DNA from: Stappia stellulata DSM 5886
GTDB lineage: Bacteria > Pseudomonadota > Alphaproteobacteria > Rhizobiales > Stappiaceae
Length of the DNA: 64,000 nucleotides
NCBI RefSeq assembly: GCF_000423705.1
Contig: NZ_KE384082.1
Coordinates: 680,843 to 744,842 of the forward strand
Direction: 5' to 3'
Shown here: positions 1,204 through 14,636 of the stretch, in pieces
Numbering within the stretch: the first letter of the stretch is position 1
Layout of the letters: every line of letters begins with the position of its first letter
The notes under the pieces: generated by a model
What the model was told of the DNA's origin: nothing
The model's database searches: none
What the model saw: the letters and a program-made list of their open reading frames with translations, nothing else
Position numbers and translations under genes: made by a program

Positions 1204-1758
1204 TCAAACGGACAGGGCGTCCTCGATCATCGCCGCGGACTCCGCTATGGCGACTTCGGAGCGGTCGAACTCTTCCCGGCCGCTCATCAACTCTTCCAGA
1301 CGCATTCTTGCACGCGACACCCGGCTCTTGACGGTCCCGACCTTCACACCGAGGATTTCTGCTGCTTCCTCGTAGGAAAAACCGCTGGCGCCGATCAGGA
1401 TAAGCGCTTCGCGCTGGTCGTCCGGCAAAACCTGCAAGGCGCCCATGAAATCCTTGAGTTCCAGATGGCCCGTCTGCTGGGGATTGGATTCAAGCGTCGC
1501 TGCATGCTTGCCGTCGGGATCGGACACCTCGCGCTGCATTTTCCGGCCGACGGAATAAAAATGGTTCCGCAAGATGGTGATCAGCCAGGCGGTCAGATTG
1601 GTGCCTTCCGTGAACTTGTCACGGTTGGCGATCGCCTTGGACAGCGTCTCCTGCACGAGATCGTCCGCACGGTCCCGGTCACCGCTGATGGATCGCGCGA
1701 ATGCACGCAACCGCGGGATCGCATCAACGAGATCCTTCTTGAACTGTGCGGCGCTCAT
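1204..1758 (-). CDS. ecfG: RNA polymerase sigma factor EcfG, general stress response
   Basis: A 184-residue ECF sigma factor that directs RNA polymerase to GGAAC-N16-CGTT promoters. Region 2 is about residues 11-78 (IPRLRAFARSISGDRDRADDLVQETL...LTAWLITILRNHFYS) and region 4 about 105-160 (LPDDQREALILIGASGFSYEEAAEILGV, GTVKSRVSRAR). These are the signatures of the ECF15/EcfG group. Its ATG overlaps the end of nepR by four bases, so the two are translationally coupled. Active PhyR sequesters NepR and frees EcfG; the shared promoter at 2023-2047 implies that EcfG drives its own operon. Confidence 0.95.
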   Translation of the reverse strand: MSAAQFKKDLVDAIPRLRAFARSISGDRDRADDLVQETLSKAIANRDKFTEGTNLTAWLITILRNHFYSVGRKMQREVSDPDGKHAATLESNPQQTGHLELKDFMGALQVLPDDQREALILIGASGFSYEEAAEILGVKVGTVKSRVSRARMRLEELMSGREEFDRSEVAIAESAAMIEDALSV

Positions 1759-1976
1759 TCAGCGGCCTCCTCGTCGGAGGCCGTCTTGTCCGCGTCGCTG
1801 TCATCGAGCGCGGACAGCAGTTCAAGCATGTCCGGCGGAATGTCTTCACACAGGGCTTCATCGTACACTTTTTTAAGCTGGTTGCCGATCCAGTCTTCCT
1901 TTTTTTTCGCCCCAGCCGTCGGTTTGATGATGCCGCAATCGGGATCCAGCCGACCAGGTCGGGTATGTCCTGCCAT
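1755..1976 (-). CDS. nepR: Anti-sigma factor NepR
   Basis: A 73-residue acidic-tailed protein whose core IGNQLKKVYDEALCEDIPPDMLELLSALD matches the NepR family helices that clamp EcfG regions 2 and 4. The ATG at 1976 is preferred over an in-frame GTG at 1982, because AGGAAG (about 1984-1989) is correctly spaced only for the ATG. It is the first gene of the nepR-ecfG operon and faces phyR across a palindromic double promoter. Known role: holds EcfG inactive until phosphorylated PhyR takes NepR away. Confidence 0.93.
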   Translation of the reverse strand: MAGHTRPGRLDPDCGIIKPTAGAKKKEDWIGNQLKKVYDEALCEDIPPDMLELLSALDDSDADKTASDEEAAE

Positions 1977-2022
1977 TGCCACTTCCTGAGCTCGTGTTGA
2001 TTTGTGGTCGATCTATGGCGCA

Positions 2023-2047
2023 AACGCGGCATGCGAAAAAAAGTTCC
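2023..2047 (-). promoter_or_regulatory. EcfG-type promoter of nepR-ecfG
   Basis: Minus strand GGAAC (2047-2043), 16-base spacer, CGTT (2026-2023), about 47 bases before the nepR ATG. It is a perfect consensus match inside the left arm of the inverted repeat 2023-2080, and indicates autoregulation. Confidence 0.8.
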
Positions 2048-2055
2048 GCGCTCCC

Positions 2056-2080
2056 GGAACTTTTTTTCGCATGCCGCGTT
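2056..2080 (+). promoter_or_regulatory. EcfG-type promoter of phyR
   Basis: GGAAC (2056-2060), 16-base spacer, CGTT (2077-2080), about 75 bases upstream of the phyR ATG. It is a perfect consensus match in the right arm of the inverted repeat. Confidence 0.8.
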
Positions 2081-2154: not shown

Positions 2155-2958
2155 ATGTCGACAAGTCTTTCCCAAGATATCGCTCCCCTCTTGCCGTATC
2201 TGCGCAGATATGCGCGGGCCCTGGCCGGAAGCCAGAAAAGCGGCGATGCCTATGTGCGCGCCTGCCTTCAGGCCCTGGTGAGCGATCAATCCATCATCGA
2301 TACCGACGGCGGAATAAAGATCGGCCTTTATCGTCTCTTTCATGTCCTGTGGAACGCCACCGTCGTTCCCGCCGCAGAGGCGGACGGAACCTCGTCGATC
2401 TTCGAACAGACGGCACAACACCGCCTTTCCACGATGGCGCCGGAAAGCCGGCAAACACTTCTGCTCTCCACGCTCGAGGGGTTCACCATTCCCGAAACGG
2501 CCCGGATCATCGACAGGAACGAAGACGAGGTCGGACAGCTGATCAAGGATGCCATTGCAGAGATCGACCGGCAGACAAAAACCGAGGTTCTCATTATCGA
2601 GGACGAACCGCTCATTTCCATGGACCTGACGCAGATCGTCGAATCCCAGGGGCATTCGGTAACGCAGGTCGCGCGAACGGCCAGCGAAGCCATCGCCGCA
2701 GCCAAGACCAAGACACCGGGCCTCGTGCTGGCCGACATTCAGCTTGCCGACGGCTCTTCCGGGATCGACGCGGTCAAGGAAATCCTGTCGAACATGACGG
2801 TTCCCGTCATTTTCATCACGTCTTTCCCCGAGCGGCTGCTGACCGGAGAACGCCCCGAGCCGACGTTCCTGATCACCAAGCCATTCAATCCCAACACGGT
2901 GAAAGCGGGTATCAGTCAGGCCCTGTTCTTCTCGGGAAGCGACGCTGTCGCTGCGTGA
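2155..2958 (+). CDS. phyR: Response regulator PhyR (sigma-like domain plus receiver)
   Basis: A 267-residue protein with the PhyR order of domains. An EcfG-like output domain spans about 1-135 (ALAGSQKSGDAYVRACLQAL...LLSTLEGFTIPETARIIDRNEDEVGQLIKDA). A receiver domain spans about 141-258 (EVLIIEDEPLISMDL, LVLADIQLADGSSG, FITSFPERLLTG, ITKPFNP). The phosphoacceptor is Asp194 and the conserved Lys lies in ITKPF. Phosphorylation opens the protein so that the sigma-like part binds NepR. It is divergent from nepR-ecfG and ends at a hairpin that also serves csbD. The likely kinase is the HWE protein at 3482-5284. Confidence 0.96.
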   Translation: MSTSLSQDIAPLLPYLRRYARALAGSQKSGDAYVRACLQALVSDQSIIDTDGGIKIGLYRLFHVLWNATVVPAAEADGTSSIFEQTAQHRLSTMAPESRQTLLLSTLEGFTIPETARIIDRNEDEVGQLIKDAIAEIDRQTKTEVLIIEDEPLISMDLTQIVESQGHSVTQVARTASEAIAAAKTKTPGLVLADIQLADGSSGIDAVKEILSNMTVPVIFITSFPERLLTGERPEPTFLITKPFNPNTVKAGISQALFFSGSDAVAA

Positions 2959-3103: not shown

Positions 3104-3301
3104 TCAGTTCCGGGCAAGCCAGTCGTCGACCTCGCGTTCGGCCTCCTCGCGTTGCTGTCCGTACTTCTGCTGCAAGAGACCGACAAGCTCGGTGCGCCGT
3201 CCGGCGACCCGGTCGAGTTCATCGTCCGTGAGCTTGCCCCACTGGGCCTGTGCCTTGCCCTTGTATTCTTTCCAGTTACCTTCGATCTGGTCCCAGTTCA
3301 T
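3104..3301 (-). CDS. CsbD family stress protein
   Basis: A 65-residue, highly charged protein starting MNWDQIEGNWKEYKGKAQAQWGKLTDDELDRVAG, the standard CsbD (PF05532) signature, and ending with a coiled-coil-prone EEAEREVDDWLARN tail. An AGGAGG-type site sits a few bases upstream of the ATG. CsbD proteins are small, soluble, abundant in stressed cells and of unknown mechanism. A perfect EcfG promoter lies at 3336-3360. It is divergent from the HWE kinase. Confidence 0.92.
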   Translation of the reverse strand: MNWDQIEGNWKEYKGKAQAQWGKLTDDELDRVAGRRTELVGLLQQKYGQQREEAEREVDDWLARN

Positions 3302-3335: not shown

Positions 3336-3360
3336 AACGTTCGGACCTGTCGAAGGTTCC
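3336..3360 (-). promoter_or_regulatory. EcfG-type promoter of csbD
   Basis: Minus strand GGAAC (3360-3356), 16-base spacer, CGTT (3339-3336), 35 bases before the ATG at 3301. Perfect consensus. Confidence 0.78.
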
Positions 3361-3481: not shown

Positions 3482-5284
3482 ATGGCGGAAATCCTTGAGT
3501 ATCTTTTTGGCGCAGCCTCCTTCGTTCCGCATGGATACTGCCTGTTGTGGCGTCCCGACCTGGTGGCGCTCCATGCTATTTCCGATGCCGCCATCGCGCT
3601 TGCCTACATCGCGATACCCGGTGCCCTGCTGGTCTTTTTGAGACGGCGTCCGGACATCAGGGGCAATTCGCGCAGGGTCGCTTACCTTTTCGTCGCCTTC
3701 ATCCTGGCCTGCGCCGCGACCCATATGGCCGCCCTTGTCACCCTCTGGTGGCCCGCCTACGGCGCGCAAGGGCTGATCAAGGCCGCAACCGCAGCAGTCT
3801 CGATCGCGACCGCCATCGTAATCTGGCTCGCCCTTCCCAAACTCCTGGCGATCCCGCCGCTGCAGGATCTCGAGCGCGCAAACGAGCATTTGAAAAAGGA
3901 AAACCGGCAGCTGAACAGGCAGATCGGCCGGAGCCGTCGCGAGATCAACAGCATCAACGACCGGTTCGAGATGGCATTGACCGGCTCGAGCATTTCCATC
4001 TTCACCCAGGACACCGACCTTCGCTACACCTGGATCCACAATCCCCGGTTCGGTCTCGATCCGGCGCGCCTTGTCGGCGAGACCGACCGAGAGGCGTTCT
4101 CGCCCGACGCCGCGGAAGAAATGATTGCGCTCAAGCAAAGGGTTATGGAGACCGGGGATCCGGCCTCGACCCACATCGCCTTCGAAAGCCGGGACGGCGG
4201 AACGGTGTATTTCGATCTCGTGGTGCATCCAACGCATGACGCGGAGGGCGTCGTCGACGGCGTGGTGTGCACCGCGATCGATATGACGGAAAAAAATCTC
4301 TATGAAATCCGCCTCATGTCCCTGGCCGACAAGCTGGCGGAGGCCAACGAGCGGTTTGAAAAAGCGCTTGACGGCTCCCTGATCACGGTCTTCGAACAGA
4401 CCCGCGACCTGAAGTACGTTCATGTCGTCAATCCGCCGGCAGGCACGAGCGTGGAGCATTTCGTCGGAAAGGACGACTGGGAACTGCTCTCCGAGGAGGA
4501 TTGTCTCAAGCTCGTTCCGGCCAAGAAACGCGTCATGGAAACCGGGGAAAGCACGGTCCTCGAGATCGACATGGTCTTGGAGGGGCAACAGAAAAACTAC
4601 AATGTCTCCATCGATCCCGCGCGCGATCGCGACGGCGCAATCACCGGCGTGATCGGAACCGCCGTCGACCTGACCCACAAGCGCCAGAACGAGCGCCAGA
4701 TGCATCTCGTGATGCGCGAACTCACGCACAGGTCAAAGAACCTGCTCGCCGTCATTCAGGCGATGGCGCGGCAGACGGCGGCGCGCTCGGACACCACCGA
4801 GGCCTTCGTCGAGAGCTTTTCCGCGCGCCTTCAGGCCATGGCCGCAAGCCACGACCTTCTTGTGTCGCAATCCTGGTACGGCGCCGATCTGCGCGCTTTG
4901 GTGATTGCCCATCTCGGTCAGTCGATCGACCCGAACAGCCCGCAAATCGATGTGCACGGTCCGCCCCGCTCGATCTCGGCCGATGCCGCGCAGAACCTCG
5001 GTCTTGCCCTGCACGAACTCACGACCAACGCGGCAAAATACGGGGCACTGTCGGTGCTCGACGGCAAGCTGACCGTTGAATGGGAAATCAGCGAAGAGAC
5101 CGTGCGGCTGACATGGACGGAGACCGGCGGTCCGGAAGTGGTCGAGCCCGAGCGCGACGGGTTCGGACGCATGCTGCTGGAAAGACTGGTTGCCCCCGCC
5201 CTCGATGGCGAGGTGACCATCGATTTCGCGGCATCGGGGGTCCGTTGCGTCATTGCATTCCCGACGCGCCACCTGGCGAGCTGA
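3482..5284 (+). CDS. HWE-family sensor histidine kinase with ethylene-receptor-like membrane domain and two PAS domains
   Basis: A 600-residue kinase. Residues 1-125 hold three membrane helices with the layout of the ethylene receptor sensor domain. Asp35 and Tyr42 lie in ISDAAIALAYIAIP, Cys77 and His81 in CAATH (the Cu(I)-ligand spacing of ETR1 Cys65/His69), and Lys100 in the third helix. A linker coiled coil (about 127-160) leads to two PAS domains (about 162-275 and 285-395). The kinase part has H416 in RELTHRSKNLLAVIQAMARQT, the N-box HELTTNAAKYGALS and the WTE of the HWE family. GGAG at 3470 supports this start. Position beside phyR/nepR/ecfG makes it the probable PhyR kinase. Whether it senses ethylene, copper, redox or light is unknown. 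Confidence 0.9.
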   Translation: MAEILEYLFGAASFVPHGYCLLWRPDLVALHAISDAAIALAYIAIPGALLVFLRRRPDIRGNSRRVAYLFVAFILACAATHMAALVTLWWPAYGAQGLIKAATAAVSIATAIVIWLALPKLLAIPPLQDLERANEHLKKENRQLNRQIGRSRREINSINDRFEMALTGSSISIFTQDTDLRYTWIHNPRFGLDPARLVGETDREAFSPDAAEEMIALKQRVMETGDPASTHIAFESRDGGTVYFDLVVHPTHDAEGVVDGVVCTAIDMTEKNLYEIRLMSLADKLAEANERFEKALDGSLITVFEQTRDLKYVHVVNPPAGTSVEHFVGKDDWELLSEEDCLKLVPAKKRVMETGESTVLEIDMVLEGQQKNYNVSIDPARDRDGAITGVIGTAVDLTHKRQNERQMHLVMRELTHRSKNLLAVIQAMARQTAARSDTTEAFVESFSARLQAMAASHDLLVSQSWYGADLRALVIAHLGQSIDPNSPQIDVHGPPRSISADAAQNLGLALHELTTNAAKYGALSVLDGKLTVEWEISEETVRLTWTETGGPEVVEPERDGFGRMLLERLVAPALDGEVTIDFAASGVRCVIAFPTRHLAS

Positions 5285-5708: not shown

Positions 5709-6218
5709 TCACTCCGTGATGAGCGCGCGAAGCATCCAGGCCGCCTTCTCGTGGAAGGTGATCCGGGCAGTTAGCAGGTCTTCGGTGACCACATCGCCAT
5801 TGTCGCCGGCATAGGTCGCGATATCGCGCATTCGTGCCGAAATGGCTTCGTGCTGGGCCACGAGGTCCTCGATCATCGCATGTGCGTCGGGCACACCGTC
5901 GCCCGGCAGCTGAATTGAAAGATCGAGCTTCCCCTCGCGAAGGTCGAACGGCGCCCTGTAGCCAAGGGCGCGGACACGTTCCGCAAGGTCGTCGGTCGCA
6001 GCGAAGAGATCCTCGTAGTGCTCTTCGGTCAGATCGTGGATCGACTTGAACAGCGGTCCGACGACATTCCAGTGGTAGAGATGGGATTTGACCGTGAGGC
6101 AGTAGGTTTCCGACAAAACGTCGGACAAACGCCTTGCGAGCTGTTCACGAACCTCGCTCGCGACTCCCGTCTTTATGCTTTCCGCTTTCGGAGTTTCTAT
6201 ATTCAAAACGCCAGACAT
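5709..6218 (-). CDS. dps: Dps-family DNA-protecting ferritin
   Basis: A 169-residue Dps. It forms dodecamers that oxidise and store iron with peroxide and protect DNA. The ferroxidase residues are visible: His49 in SHLYHWNVVG, His61 in KSIHDLTEEHYEDL, and Asp76/Glu80 in DDLAERVRALG. The length is normal for the family. The ATG at 6218 has an AGGAGGA-type site upstream. It sits in the stress island, but no GGAAC-N16-GTT site was found within 90 bases of its start, so its promoter is unresolved. Confidence 0.93.
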   Translation of the reverse strand: MSGVLNIETPKAESIKTGVASEVREQLARRLSDVLSETYCLTVKSHLYHWNVVGPLFKSIHDLTEEHYEDLFAATDDLAERVRALGYRAPFDLREGKLDLSIQLPGDGVPDAHAMIEDLVAQHEAISARMRDIATYAGDNGDVVTEDLLTARITFHEKAAWMLRALITE

Positions 6219-9855: not shown

Positions 9856-9991
9856 AGGGAAACGCCGCCAAGCATTCATCTCGTTGAAATAATTACTGAA
9901 AATTCATTTTCGCTCAAAACATATGTTAATGCGGGCCCGGATGGGTCGTGTATAGAGTGCGAAAATCATCACGCTCTTGGAAAGATATTTC

Positions 9992-10366
9992 ATGATATCC
10001 GAATTTAAGGCGTCCGAGCAAAAATCGCGTGGGCGGGCTCTCGTTGTTGAAGACAACCCGCTTATTGCGATGGATACTCAGACACTGCTCGAAGACATCG
10101 GCTTCTCGCCGGTCATCGTTTTGTCGAGCCTGTCTGCCGGACATGCCGATTTTGCCGACCACGACTTCAGCTTTGCAATTCTCGATGTGCAGATCGGCGA
10201 CGACGCCTGCGTGAAATATGCCGAAGGCCTCGCGGTACGTGGAGCGCGGATCGTGTTTGCCAGCGGATACAGCGATGGCGAGGGTCTGCCCCCGTTCTTT
10301 CGCAATCATGTCGTGATCGGGAAGCCGTATACCAAGGCTCAGCTCATGGAGCTTTTGCAGTCTTGA
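9992..10366 (+). CDS. Single-domain response regulator, FAT GUY-like
   Basis: A 124-residue stand-alone receiver: VVEDNPLIAMDTQTLL, phosphoacceptor Asp65 in AILDVQIGDD, then FASGYSDGEGLPPFFRNHVVIGKPYTKAQL. The F-A-S/T-G-Y motif before the conserved Lys (GKPYT) resembles the FAT GUY receivers (SdrG, MrrA) that pass phosphate between HWE kinases and PhyR in the alphaproteobacterial general stress response. The ATG at 9992 has GGAAAG at 9979-9984; a TTG 15 bases upstream is less likely. Its stop lies inside a bidirectional hairpin. The receiver call is certain; the FAT GUY assignment is an inference from the motif and the location. Confidence 0.85.
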   Translation: MISEFKASEQKSRGRALVVEDNPLIAMDTQTLLEDIGFSPVIVLSSLSAGHADFADHDFSFAILDVQIGDDACVKYAEGLAVRGARIVFASGYSDGEGLPPFFRNHVVIGKPYTKAQLMELLQS

Positions 10367-11479: not shown

Positions 11480-11578
11480 CGATCTCAAGCGGAAGCGGCA
11501 TGATCGTGTGCGTCGACGGATGTCGATCGTTCATCCGGCATGAGCAGACCCGCCGGCGCTTTTTTTGCGAACCGCCAT

Positions 11579-11603
11579 GGAACCAAACCCGCCTTCGCAC
11601 GTT
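11579..11603 (+). promoter_or_regulatory. EcfG-type promoter of the amidoligase operon
   Basis: GGAAC (11579-11583), 16-base spacer, CGTT (11600-11603), 29 bases before the ATG at 11632. Perfect consensus. Confidence 0.75.
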
Positions 11604-11631
11604 GGCTTGGCAAAGCGAAGTGGTATCAACC

Positions 11632-12624
11632 ATGACCCGGGAGCATGATCACGTGTCTTTCCAAGGAGAGGCTTGCGCCAGCAAAACGGCGCGCGGCACT
11701 GATAGCGGCACGTCTCCGCACGAAAGACGGGTGGGCATCGAGGTCGAGTTCGGCGGGCTGAATGCCCGCGAGGCAACCTGCGTGATTCAGGATCTTCTGG
11801 GTGGCGAAATTGTCGAGACGGATGCCCATCGCTACGATGTGAAGGACACCGATCTTGGCGATATCCGCATCGAGCTGGACAGCAAATATGTCCACAGCAG
11901 CGAAAAAGCATCCGCGCTGGAAAAAAAGGTCCGCCGGTTTGCCGGCGACGTCTCCGGACCGGTCGTTCCCACGGAGCTGATCACGGAGCCCTTGCCGGTG
12001 TCCTCGATTGCCAGGGTGGACCACCTTCTTGACAATCTTGCGCAAGCCGGTGCCGTCGGCACCGAGCAGCCTCACCTTGCCTGCGGCGTGCATCTCAACA
12101 TCGAATGGACCGAGACCGGTGTCGGTTCCATCATGCGGGTTCTGCAGGCCTATCTGCTGATGGCTCCCGCCCTTCGCGCCGATATCGAGCCCGACACGAC
12201 CAGGACCCTCCTGCCCTTCATCGGCCGCTTTCCAAGGGACTATCAGGCAAAGGTCCTGGATCTCGACTACGACCCGGATTTCCGGCAATTCGTCGCCGAT
12301 TACTGTCTGGCCAATCCGTCGAAAAACCGCGAGCTGGACCTTTTGCCGCTGCTTGCCTCGATCGATGAAAAAGCGGTTGAGCACGCGCTGGGGGAAAAGC
12401 CGACGGCGATCCGCCCGACGTTTCACTACCGCTTGCCCAATTCGCTTATCGGCGTCGCGGACTGGTCGATTGCCCGGGAATGGGAGCGGTGGCTGCGCGT
12501 GGAGGCGCTGGCCGCCGACGAACGCCGCCTCCGCGATGGCTTGAAAGAGTTCCGAGACCGCCACGAAACGGACGACGCCCTGGGAACACTCAAGCGAATG
12601 TTCGCCGACGTTATTGGCAAGTGA
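11632..12624 (+). CDS. Amidoligase-family enzyme (PF12224)
   Basis: A 330-residue protein with the features of the Amidoligase_2 family, which shares the glutamine-synthetase/GCS fold and joins a carboxylate to an amine using ATP. The opening strand RRVGIEVEFGGLNAREATCV carries the family Glu pair. RIELDSKYV and ACGVHLNIEW (His/Asn) follow, then the YRLPNSLIGVADWSIAREWERW C-terminal part. It is the first gene of a two-gene operon with a class I amidotransferase; that pairing is a known conserved neighbourhood of this family. A perfect EcfG promoter precedes it. The substrate (peptide, polyamine or cell-wall piece) is unknown. Confidence 0.8.
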   Translation: MTREHDHVSFQGEACASKTARGTDSGTSPHERRVGIEVEFGGLNAREATCVIQDLLGGEIVETDAHRYDVKDTDLGDIRIELDSKYVHSSEKASALEKKVRRFAGDVSGPVVPTELITEPLPVSSIARVDHLLDNLAQAGAVGTEQPHLACGVHLNIEWTETGVGSIMRVLQAYLLMAPALRADIEPDTTRTLLPFIGRFPRDYQAKVLDLDYDPDFRQFVADYCLANPSKNRELDLLPLLASIDEKAVEHALGEKPTAIRPTFHYRLPNSLIGVADWSIAREWERWLRVEALAADERRLRDGLKEFRDRHETDDALGTLKRMFADVIGK

Positions 12625-12625
12625 C

Positions 12626-13333
12626 GTGACGGTACGGATCGGCGTTTCGACATCGGTGCGCGGCGGATGGCGGTCATTCCTGGCCATTCGCTTCGCGCTC
12701 TGGCGTGCCGGCGCAAAGGCCGTCCGCATCACCGCCGACCGGCCACGCGCGATCGACAGCCTGGACGGGCTTGTCGCGGGCGGAGGAGACGACATCAGCG
12801 CAACGCTTTACGGGGGCGAGTTGATGCCCGACGTGCGGATCGATCCGAAACGCGATGCGCTGGAAATGCAGCTGATCCGCTCCGCCGTGTCCGACCGGGT
12901 CCCGGTGCTCGGCATCTGCCGGGGCTCGCAGATGATCAACATCACCTTCGGCGGGACGCTGCATGTCGACATCCAGACCGTCTTCAAGGATGCGCCGCGG
13001 CTTCGCACCGTGCTCCCGCGCAAGACGATCACGGTCTCGCAAGGCTCGCTGCTGGCGTCCGTCCTCGGGCGCGACAGGTGCAAGGTCAATGCGCTCCATC
13101 ATCAGTCGGTGAAGGATCTCGCCCCCGGACTGCGGATCAGTGCAAGGGACGAGTTCGACATCGTCCAGGCGATCGAGACAGACGCCGGCCCGCCCGTGCT
13201 CGGGGTTCAATGGCATCCGGAACTCATGCCCTTCACCCCCAGACAGAAGAGGCTGTTCGCCTGGCTCGTGCGGCAGGCCGACGAACGTCGTGCGTTGCGC
13301 GACACCGCCCGCGCCGCCCCCGCACCGGCCTGA
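12626..13333 (+). CDS. Class I glutamine amidotransferase-like protein (peptidase C26 / gamma-glutamyl hydrolase group)
   Basis: A 235-residue GATase-I fold protein starting VTVRIGVSTSVRGGWRSFLAIRFALW. It has the SLDGLVAGGGDDISATLYGG motif of the PuuD/gamma-Glu-GABA hydrolase branch. The nucleophile is Cys98 in GICRGSQMINITFGG and the rest of the triad is His197/Glu199 in GVQWHPELMPF. The GTG start at 12626 gives the usual family N-terminus; a TTG at 12614, overlapping the amidoligase, is the alternative. Partnered with the amidoligase it may supply ammonia from glutamine or remove a gamma-glutamyl group from the product. Both are inferences. Confidence 0.82.
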   Translation: MTVRIGVSTSVRGGWRSFLAIRFALWRAGAKAVRITADRPRAIDSLDGLVAGGGDDISATLYGGELMPDVRIDPKRDALEMQLIRSAVSDRVPVLGICRGSQMINITFGGTLHVDIQTVFKDAPRLRTVLPRKTITVSQGSLLASVLGRDRCKVNALHHQSVKDLAPGLRISARDEFDIVQAIETDAGPPVLGVQWHPELMPFTPRQKRLFAWLVRQADERRALRDTARAAPAPA

Positions 13334-13411
13334 CAAAACCGCTGAAGCGGACAGCAGGCCGATGCGGGAAGACAGCGGGCAATCTGCGGGCTTTCGGGAC
13401 TGCCGTCTTCC

Positions 13412-13443
13412 GGGACGGTGATGGCATGCGCGCATGCCGTCCC
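13412..13443. terminator. Imperfect hairpin between convergent genes
   Basis: GGGAC (13412-13416) and GTCCC (13439-13443) enclose the 16-base perfect palindrome GGCATGCGCGCATGCC (13423-13438), with a six-base bulge on one side. It lies between the amidotransferase gene and the LysR gene. Termination is inferred from position only. Confidence 0.35.
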
Positions 13444-13518
13444 CGTGCTGTCCGCCAGGATGTTGCCCTTCGCACCGGCGAAATCGTCCCGATCGGTCTT
13501 TCCCCTTTCGGGGGCGGG

Positions 13519-14463
13519 TCAGGAGCCTCCACTGAGCGCCTGTATCTCGGCGATTTCGTCCATCAGCCACTTCCTGAACACGTCCACATAGGACGTGGCG
13601 GCAATGATATCTTCGGCGCACACGAACTTGTAGGACAGCGGCGGGCGGATGTAGCTTTCGGAAATCACGAAGATCCGCCCCGCATTCACGTCCTGGTCGA
13701 TCAGCGAACGGTCCGCGAGCGCAATCCCCTGGCCGGAGCGGACGACCTCGATGATCGTGTGCTGATCGTCGAAAACGAGATTGGGGTGATCGCCGCCGGT
13801 CTCGATATCTTCCTGACCGAGCCAGCTTTCCCAGTCCTTCAGGTCGCGATAGTTCAAACGGGTGATATCGGGGCGACGCAGCAAATCCATCGGGTTCTCG
13901 ACGCTCTTGATGAGATCTCCGCTGCAGACGGGCACCAGCTTTTCCCTGAGCAATTCGAACGAATGCGTGCCGGCGGGCGCTTCGTCGCAATACTCTATGA
14001 ATACGTCATTGGGTCCGGGCGAGGAGGCATTCGACCGGACATTGTTCAAATGCAGCTGCAGTCCCGGATTGTCATTCATGAAGTCCGAAATCCGCGGAGC
14101 GATCACTTTCAGGGCGAAGAATGGCCCCGCACTGACGTTGAGGGTCTTTGTGTCGCGGATCCTCCGGATGAGCGACAGCGTCTCGCTGATCTCGTCGAGC
14201 GCGCGTTTGCAGGTTTCCTTCAGCAGGATCCCCTGAGGGGTCAGCGACACGCCCGTCTTGCCACGCACGAAAACGCGAACGCCGAGCTTTTCTTCAAGAA
14301 GCTTGATCTGATGGCTGACCGCGCCCTGGCTGACGGACAGTTCGTCGGCGGCTTTCGTGAAGCTCAAATGATGGGCGACCGCTTCAAAAGCGCGTATCGC
14401 CTTCAGGCTCGGGATCCGCTTCCGGTCGGACCGGCGATGCTCCATATCATTAATTTTTTTCAT
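13519..14463 (-). CDS. LysR-family transcriptional regulator (GcvA-like)
   Basis: A 314-residue LysR protein. The winged helix lies at about residues 18-78 (PSLKAIRAFEAVAHHLSFTKAADELSVSQGAVSHQIKLLEEKLGVRVFVR), followed by a linker helix and a periplasmic-binding-like effector domain (about 105-300). The GcvA-type opening (SLKAIRAFEAVAHHLSFTKAA) is typical of amino-acid gene regulators. It is divergent from the amino acid ABC importer and most likely controls it. A second in-frame ATG at 14445 (MEHRRSDRK) could be the true start. The effector is unknown; an imported amino acid is a reasonable guess. Confidence 0.92.
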   Translation of the reverse strand: MKKINDMEHRRSDRKRIPSLKAIRAFEAVAHHLSFTKAADELSVSQGAVSHQIKLLEEKLGVRVFVRGKTGVSLTPQGILLKETCKRALDEISETLSLIRRIRDTKTLNVSAGPFFALKVIAPRISDFMNDNPGLQLHLNNVRSNASSPGPNDVFIEYCDEAPAGTHSFELLREKLVPVCSGDLIKSVENPMDLLRRPDITRLNYRDLKDWESWLGQEDIETGGDHPNLVFDDQHTIIEVVRSGQGIALADRSLIDQDVNAGRIFVISESYIRPPLSYKFVCAEDIIAATSYVDVFRKWLMDEIAEIQALSGGS

Positions 14464-14636
14464 GCCATGTAATAATTCTTTTGCATTGTTTGATCAATCA
14501 ACACGCGGATATTTTCACAAAACACGCTGGCTTATCCCGCCAGTGAAAATAAAAAAATTATTCGGCGCAGACGCAAACGGATAATGACGTCAACGGGCAA
14601 ACCTTGCCCAGGCAGCCACGGTGGAGGAAACCAAAT
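14464..14636. promoter_or_regulatory. Divergent promoter region between the LysR gene and the amino acid ABC operon
   Basis: This 173-base spacer is AT rich near 14464-14515 and holds the palindrome TTGATCAA (14490s) within TTTGATCAATCAA, suitable for LysR binding. Near 14527-14543, CTGGC/GCCAG can form a short stem followed by an A/T tract. No firm -35/-10 pair was identified. Confidence 0.35.

Follow-up and report, generated by a model that had tools for sequence, protein, structure and literature searches.

An ethylene-receptor-type membrane domain on a putative general-stress kinase encoded beside phyR in Stappia stellulata

Bacterial ethylene receptors and the HWE kinases of the general stress response are each already known. 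The former include AzoEtr1 of Azospirillum brasilense, the first 130 residues of which bind ethylene (PMC11819568), and SynEtr1 of Synechocystis (PMC6682694), while among the latter the Brucella kinase LOV-HK phosphorylates PhyR (PMC4438053). Here we describe a gene that seems to combine the two, found on the plus strand of a stretch of 64,000 nucleotides from Stappia stellulata DSM 5886 (Alphaproteobacteria, Rhizobiales, Stappiaceae; contig NZ_KE384082.1, positions 680,843 to 744,842), hereafter called the window. Judging from its domains and its surroundings, the gene probably encodes a membrane-bound receptor kinase of the Cu(I)/ethylene type that feeds PhyR within the general stress response. 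To our knowledge, the signals sensed by alphaproteobacterial general-stress kinases are largely open, and so is the role of ethylene-receptor domains in bacteria living apart from plants; one gene here joins both questions, in the simple setting of a genome in which it accounts for the sole HWE_HK match.

The receptor kinase and its candidate copper site

The gene is an open frame of 600 amino acids (Table 1). Residues 27-124 match ETR1_N (Pfam PF25487) with an E-value of 1.2e-31 and 109 bits against a cut-off of 27, PAS_4 matches two stretches further along, the first of them best, and HWE_HK matches residues 413-494 (E 1.2e-24). The open frame and its Pfam domains together rule out a chance or mis-framed reading frame, and an earlier interpretation made from the sequence only, which had placed an ETR1-like sensor on an HWE kinase and held this domain to be known in other bacteria, is borne out on both points. 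The motifs of the kinase core, i.e. H416 (HRxxN), N516 (N box) and W545-x-E, are all intact and align with those of Brucella LOV-HK, a kinase with a soluble light (LOV) sensor, which is also the best match of the core in the PDB (phmmer E 6e-34, 190 residues). Apart from this one HWE_HK match, the genome holds one further HisKA_2 match, in a protein of 218 amino acids with no PAS match. When plasmids were searched with the entire kinase, 857 records matched and in none did the match span 80% of the protein; those listed (15 of the 857) comprised the PAS-HWE part only.

The residues pointed out by the sequence-only reading, namely Asp35, Tyr42, Cys77 and His81 in C-x3-H spacing, and Lys100, are all in place. 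Ile45, Pro46 and Ile74 are present as well, which makes the set of ethylene-binding residues plus the lysine complete (D35, Y42, I45, P46, I74, C77, H81 and K100). We take Y42, I45, P46 and I74 to be the counterparts of ETR1 Tyr32, Ile35, Pro36 and Ile62, the identities of four of the seven binding residues thereby being assumed; they are said to go back to Wang et al. 2006. Numbering relative to AzoEtr1 was obtained with a stand-in, the receptor of Azospirillum canadense (L217). Its start region departs at 3 of 24 bases from the primer published for cloning AzoEtr1, and its domain is identical to that of the window at 57 of 124 residues. A gap of two residues in this alignment converts C75, H79 and K98, which together with D35 are the site residues named for AzoEtr1 (PMC11819568), into C77, H81 and K100.

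A wider set of 80 named loci, the best 80 of 148, was retrieved with the motif Fx[PA]HG[YVI]CL[LT]W, so that H17 and C20 were ascertained by the search itself and only the other residues are informative. D35, Y42, C77, H81 and K100 are kept in all 80, P46 is changed in five and I74 in three. Since the search motif lies outside the five invariant residues, their presence is not due to chance.

AlphaFold2 (52 sequences; mean pLDDT 86.4, pTM 0.66) predicts three helices in the domain, followed by a fourth at residues 127-161. The three helices ahead of the kinase part are presumably membrane helices. D35 is found 10 residues from the start of helix 1, H81 eight from the end of helix 2 and K100 seven from the start of helix 3, which would place them at similar depth near the outer face, provided that the N-terminus is outside. 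The sequence-only reading had named a structural model in which Cys77 and His81 point away from each other as evidence against it. This appears to be a weak test, because C-x3-H falls within predicted helix 62-89, and every model of this kind would show both residues on one side of the helix, a single turn from each other. No solved structure related to the membrane domain was found by sequence at E <= 1, and a fold search with the domain gave no match at E <= 0.001.

Distribution, linkage to phyR and the HG-x-C motif

ETR1_N matches were found in 30 of 87 Stappiaceae genomes, 24 of which (that of the window and 23 others) have a frame with the complete order, from ethylene-receptor-type domain over two PAS domains to HWE kinase, adjoining phyR. 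PhyR proper, defined as a PF22029 match at E < 1e-20, a threshold set at a gap in the match list (which was cut short only for matches weaker than E 2e-9), was present in 46 of the 87, and the phyR locus was read in all of these except G003 and G009. HWE_HK occurs in each of these 46 genomes and in two of the remaining 41, those of S. indica and S. taiwanensis (Fisher p 1e-22, kinship ignored). In 13 of the 24 genomes with a phyR-linked kinase of this type, S. stellulata included, that kinase is the sole HWE_HK match.

Beyond the family, ETR1_N matches were found in 64 of 397 genomes of the order (55 above the cut-off) and in 29 of 398 genomes of a phylum sample. Altogether 90 frames with the domain were compared, 31 from the family and the remainder from the order loci (60 read; L143, which gave no frame by profile, was left out). 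PhyR lies within 5 kb of 51 of the 62 frames that also carry HWE, as against 1 of the 28 that do not (Fisher p 4e-13, kinship ignored), and the same contrast rules out that the abundance of the domain alone accounts for the linkage to phyR. The single case among the 28 is a kinase 1.2 kb from phyR in L087 (G296), which has the same genus code as loci resembling Bradyrhizobium and is presumably of that genus. The named loci include 25 with both domain and HWE. PhyR lies within 5 kb in 16 of the 80, and the genera represented among these 16 are e.g. Roseibium, Labrenzia, Stappia, Amorphus, Tepidamorphus and Prosthecomicrobium. In Roseibium aggregatum IAM 12614 (L155) the site is intact and the distance to phyR is 389 bases. 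In Amorphus (L103/L162), the PhyR-like protein close to the kinase was matched by tblastn, and the best PF22029 match of the genome is on another contig.

Ahead of helix 1, residues H17 to C20 form a motif, HG-x-C, that varies together with C-x3-H. Both motifs occur in 45 of the 90 frames, neither in 41 and one only in four (three and one), i.e. 86 of 90 are concordant; the two halves of a split gene (L060) are scored as absent in these figures (45/41/3/1), and without them the counts are 45/39/3/1 of 88. Outside the order, 15 of the 17 frames of the phylum sample have both, L248 has C-x3-H only and L252 has neither. All 45 intact frames, the class being defined by C77, H81, D35 and Y42, keep H17, C20, D35, Y42, I45, P46, I74, C77, H81 and K100. 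For a comparison of single columns, 45 intact and 42 lost frames were used and three were dropped; L125, with Cys and His kept and Asp and Tyr not, is in neither class. The intact set has 29 conserved columns, and of these the lost lineages retain H17 least often (in 1 of 7 with the least divergence, which were picked by eye, and in 2 of 21 representatives), while C20 is retained in 4 of 7 and 4 of 21, respectively. All five independent pairs are concordant for the two motifs, giving a sign-test p of 0.0625, short of 0.05 because the pairs are too few. On these alignments the coupling to C-x3-H appears strong for H17 and moderate for C20. H17, perhaps with C20, may form part of the metal site or its gate, and the two residues provide a concrete mutational prediction for bacterial ethylene sites. 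We know of no plant receptor with the HG-x-C motif.

The adjacency to phyR, nepR and ecfG, which had also been claimed from the letters alone, is confirmed by Pfam and by the coordinates (Table 1). Around the 23 other Stappiaceae kinases, homologues of the CsbD-like gene, the Dps-like gene and the single-domain receiver were found in 22, 21 and 17 cases, respectively. The receiver, which is probably the one that the sequence-only reading had mentioned as lying nearby, is situated a few kb past the kinase and could be a phosphate sink or a relay partner. A scan with what we take to be the EcfG-type promoter consensus gave 12 motifs in the window against 6.0 expected, a number reached in 1 of 100 shuffles.

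Table 1. Features of the receptor kinase gene and of its surroundings in the window
Feature	Position	Strand	Basis
Receptor kinase, 600 aa: ETR1_N - helix - PAS - PAS - HWE kinase	3482..5284	+	Open reading frame and Pfam
Ethylene-receptor-type membrane domain, residues 1-125; predicted helices 25-55, 62-89, 93-122	3482..3856	+	Pfam ETR1_N; AlphaFold2
HG-x-C motif, H17 to C20, ahead of helix 1; co-occurs with C-x3-H in relatives	3530..3541	+	Frame alignments
D35 (AzoEtr1 D35)	3584..3586	+	Alignment with L217
Y42	3605..3607	+	Sequence and alignment
C77-x3-H81, expected Cu(I) ligands	3710..3724	+	Sequence, alignment with L217
K100 (AzoEtr1 K98)	3779..3781	+	Alignment with L217
First PAS domain, residues 169-271	3986..4294	+	PAS_4
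Second PAS domain, about residues 295-400, limits estimated	4364..4681	+	Second PAS_4 stretch and PAS_10 (361-398)
HWE_HK domain with H416 in HRSKN	4718..4963	+	Pfam and alignment
ecfG	1204..1758	-	Pfam
nepR	1755..1982	-	Pfam
phyR	2155..2958	+	Pfam
Two identical outward-facing EcfG-type promoter motifs between nepR and phyR, 2023-2047 (-) and 2056-2080 (+)	2023..2080		Assumed consensus
CsbD-like stress gene, with EcfG-type motif at 3336-3360 (-)	3104..3301	-	Pfam, conserved in locus
Dps/ferritin-like gene, conserved in locus	5709..6218	-	Pfam
Single-domain receiver, conserved in locus	9977..10366	+	Response_reg E 3.9e-5, under Pfam cut-off

Further along the window, a putative amidoligase is found at 11500-12624 (+; PF12224, E 5e-48), and beside it a frame at 12667-14472 (601 amino acids) gave no Pfam match at E <= 0.01.

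Another 20 phyR loci were read in the family (L066-L085). In 19 of these PhyR is 50.8-56.8% identical to that of the window, the phyR of L078 being truncated, and 16 of the 20 have an HWE kinase match nearby. They look like a second type of phyR locus in Stappiaceae, mostly with other HWE kinases, several of which have a different, extracytoplasmic-looking N-terminus that appears CHASE-like by eye. Two loci seem to be decaying: L078 (G012), with a phyR frame of 156 amino acids and no HWE match in the stretch, and L060 (G003), in which the ethylene-receptor-type domain is split over two frames and the PhyR frame has 110 amino acids.

Proposed route, loss of the site and rival explanations

The link of the kinase to the PhyR pathway is drawn from homology, from the conserved locus and from the co-occurrence of HWE_HK with PhyR. 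In the route that we propose, the three-helix N-terminal domain would hold Cu(I) at C77 and H81, positioned by D35 and K100, with H17 and perhaps C20 probably adding the rest of the site from the outer face. Ethylene, another small Cu(I) ligand or the loss of copper would alter the packing of the helices, and this change would be carried by helix 127-161 through the two PAS domains to the HWE core, which would autophosphorylate on H416 and set the phosphorylation of PhyR. Phosphorylated PhyR would then remove NepR from EcfG and thereby turn on the stress regulon. In Synechocystis, ethylene lowers transcript abundance where UV-A light raises it (PMC6682694), and ethylene might therefore damp the stress response instead of triggering it.

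Several observations weigh against this route. In the samples of family and order, the domain occurs on 52 kinases adjacent to phyR, that of the window included. The site is intact in 23 of these and 29 lack Cys and/or His, often together with Asp or Tyr, so that the locus does not need the copper site. S. indica (L036, G076) and S. taiwanensis (L037, G086) have an intact kinase with the same domain order and no PhyR match, and the scan of the window with the presumed EcfG-type consensus gave no motif facing the kinase. Neighborhood is furthermore no proof of a PhyR kinase, because two kinases at the Brucella general stress response locus do not phosphorylate PhyR (PMC4438053) and PhyT, which is membrane-bound and encoded at the phyR locus of Sphingomonas, acts as a phosphotransferase (PMC5898713). 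The coupling of an ethylene or copper signal to the stress response, as put forward by the sequence-only reading, stands in part: the domain, the intact site and the link to phyR-nepR-ecfG are supported, and ethylene could at best be the signal in lineages with an intact site.

The site appears to have been lost repeatedly. The best tree computed from the protein outside the domain requires six changes in the state of the site, a number also reached at both the 5% and the 95% limit of 200 bootstrap trees, and at least four changes fall on well-supported branches; L110, 10 kb from phyR, was left out of this tree. A wider quick tree of 63 rows, with several long branches, needed seven changes (at least five). 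The trees are unrooted, and the changes are read as losses and not gains because regaining so many residues would be implausible. Prosthecomicrobium (L104/L174) is intact, and its nearest kin on the tree (L126-L128, L133, L140 and L141), which have the same family code, are not. In the wider tree, the kinase parts of L036 and L037 sit on a long branch.

Loss of the site need not entail loss of constraint. In L054, L055 and L057, C77G is combined with H81Q or H81E, while D35, Y42, I45, P46, I74 and K100 are retained, and the dN/dS of the domain in this clade is 0.069, i.e. it is under purifying selection. The corresponding value is 0.137 in group f11, and simple decay is not supported for either. 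It is possible in the group of L126-L128, L140 and L141, where dN/dS reaches 0.299 in the domain and 0.187 elsewhere in the protein. For comparison, the intact Stappia kinases have 0.133 and 0.132, respectively, while the values for the group 'Roseibium b' cannot be relied on, since 4 of 10 pairs yielded no estimate. Profile comparison rules out that the degenerate domains are unrelated membrane segments in two groups (E 9e-17 and 7e-22) and does so less firmly in a third (E 8e-7, probability 92%; Pfam 23 bits, below the cut-off of 27). With Cys and His lost and the domain kept and constrained, the domain can therefore act at this locus without the copper site, and we infer that the same membrane domain carries another input in the site-less orthologues. 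ETR1_N still scores 100 bits on the L054 kinase (C77G, H81Q), so annotations as 'ethylene receptor' need a check of the residues.

These losses would also suit a domain that mainly anchors or dimerises the kinase or senses the state of the membrane, with the copper site as an ancestral leftover and the PAS domains carrying the stress signal. Both the repeated disappearance of Cys and His from a domain that stays and the constraint in the L054 clade are in line with such a role. We nevertheless regard it as doubtful, given that the site residues are invariant in the 45 intact frames and that in intact Stappia the domain is as constrained as the rest of the protein. A sensor of copper status or redox state, in which the Cu(I) site (C77 and H81 with H17 and C20) reports copper supply or an oxidant and ethylene binding is incidental, also has points in its favor. 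Stappia is a marine genus, in which a plant hormone would not be the first signal to expect, the kinase lies among the stress genes csbD and dps, and HG-x-C offers a possible second metal-binding pair. This motif is also found in L217, however, and is therefore no argument against ethylene; the related AzoEtr1 domain binds ethylene (PMC11819568), and the ethylene-site residues are retained together with C77 and H81, all of which makes copper or redox as the primary stimulus rather unlikely.

At the other end of the protein, the kinase might not act on PhyR directly. It could be a phosphotransferase or phosphatase in a relay, in the manner of PhyT or RsiC, and have the receiver at 9977-10366 for its partner; the presence of the receiver in most of the other loci as well as the precedent of PhyT at a phyR locus (PMC5898713) are consistent with this. 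We find it quite improbable: the kinase motifs (H416, N516 and W545-x-E) are all preserved and line up with those of LOV-HK, and with a sole HWE_HK and a single other HisKA_2 protein in the genome there are few kinases to charge such a relay.

Taken over all lineages, a direct kinase of PhyR with a Cu(I)/ethylene-type sensor, the reading that we prefer for S. stellulata, could be part of a broader history, which we put forward tentatively and with somewhat less than even confidence. In several families of the order, the ETR1-type domain would have long served the general stress response as a membrane input, and its bacterial metal site would have an outer HG-x-C half which plants lack. The copper site would have been given up in at least four to six lineages that kept the domain, at least one of them under purifying selection, and the copper-less versions would have been re-used for a different stimulus, leaving natural copper-holding and copper-less sets at one locus. 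Such natural losses of Cys and His are ready-made controls.

Comparison with known systems

AzoEtr1 and SynEtr1 likewise have a three-helix domain, with D, C, H and K in the same positions, followed by PAS and kinase parts (PMC11819568, PMC6682694). AzoEtr1 has one PAS domain and a response-regulator gene directly downstream, whereas the Stappia kinase has two PAS domains, an HWE core and phyR-nepR-ecfG adjoining it; in the available part of the AzoEtr1 paper (PMC11819568), 'general stress' and 'HWE' both occur 0 times. Plant ethylene receptors are N-terminally disulfide-linked dimers (PMC12744750). ETR1 is taken to share its copper ligands, Cys65 and His69, and their partner residues with the Stappia kinase. 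Searches of one library of open-licence papers, judged from their listings, found no report that joins an ETR1-type domain to the general stress pathway. As far as we have seen, three features are new, namely the coupling to this pathway, the disappearance of the site several times over at a single locus and the HG-x-C motif that goes with it. They suggest a connection, open to test, through which a gas or copper would signal to the stress control of bacteria. On the kinase side, Brucella LOV-HK shares the HWE core and has a soluble sensor instead of the membrane domain. PhyP/PhyT and RsiC are membrane-anchored, carry HRxxN and are encoded beside phyR (PMC5898713), and the Stappia kinase, compared by description only, fits this type in its position at the phyR locus, its membrane part and its HRxxN motif.
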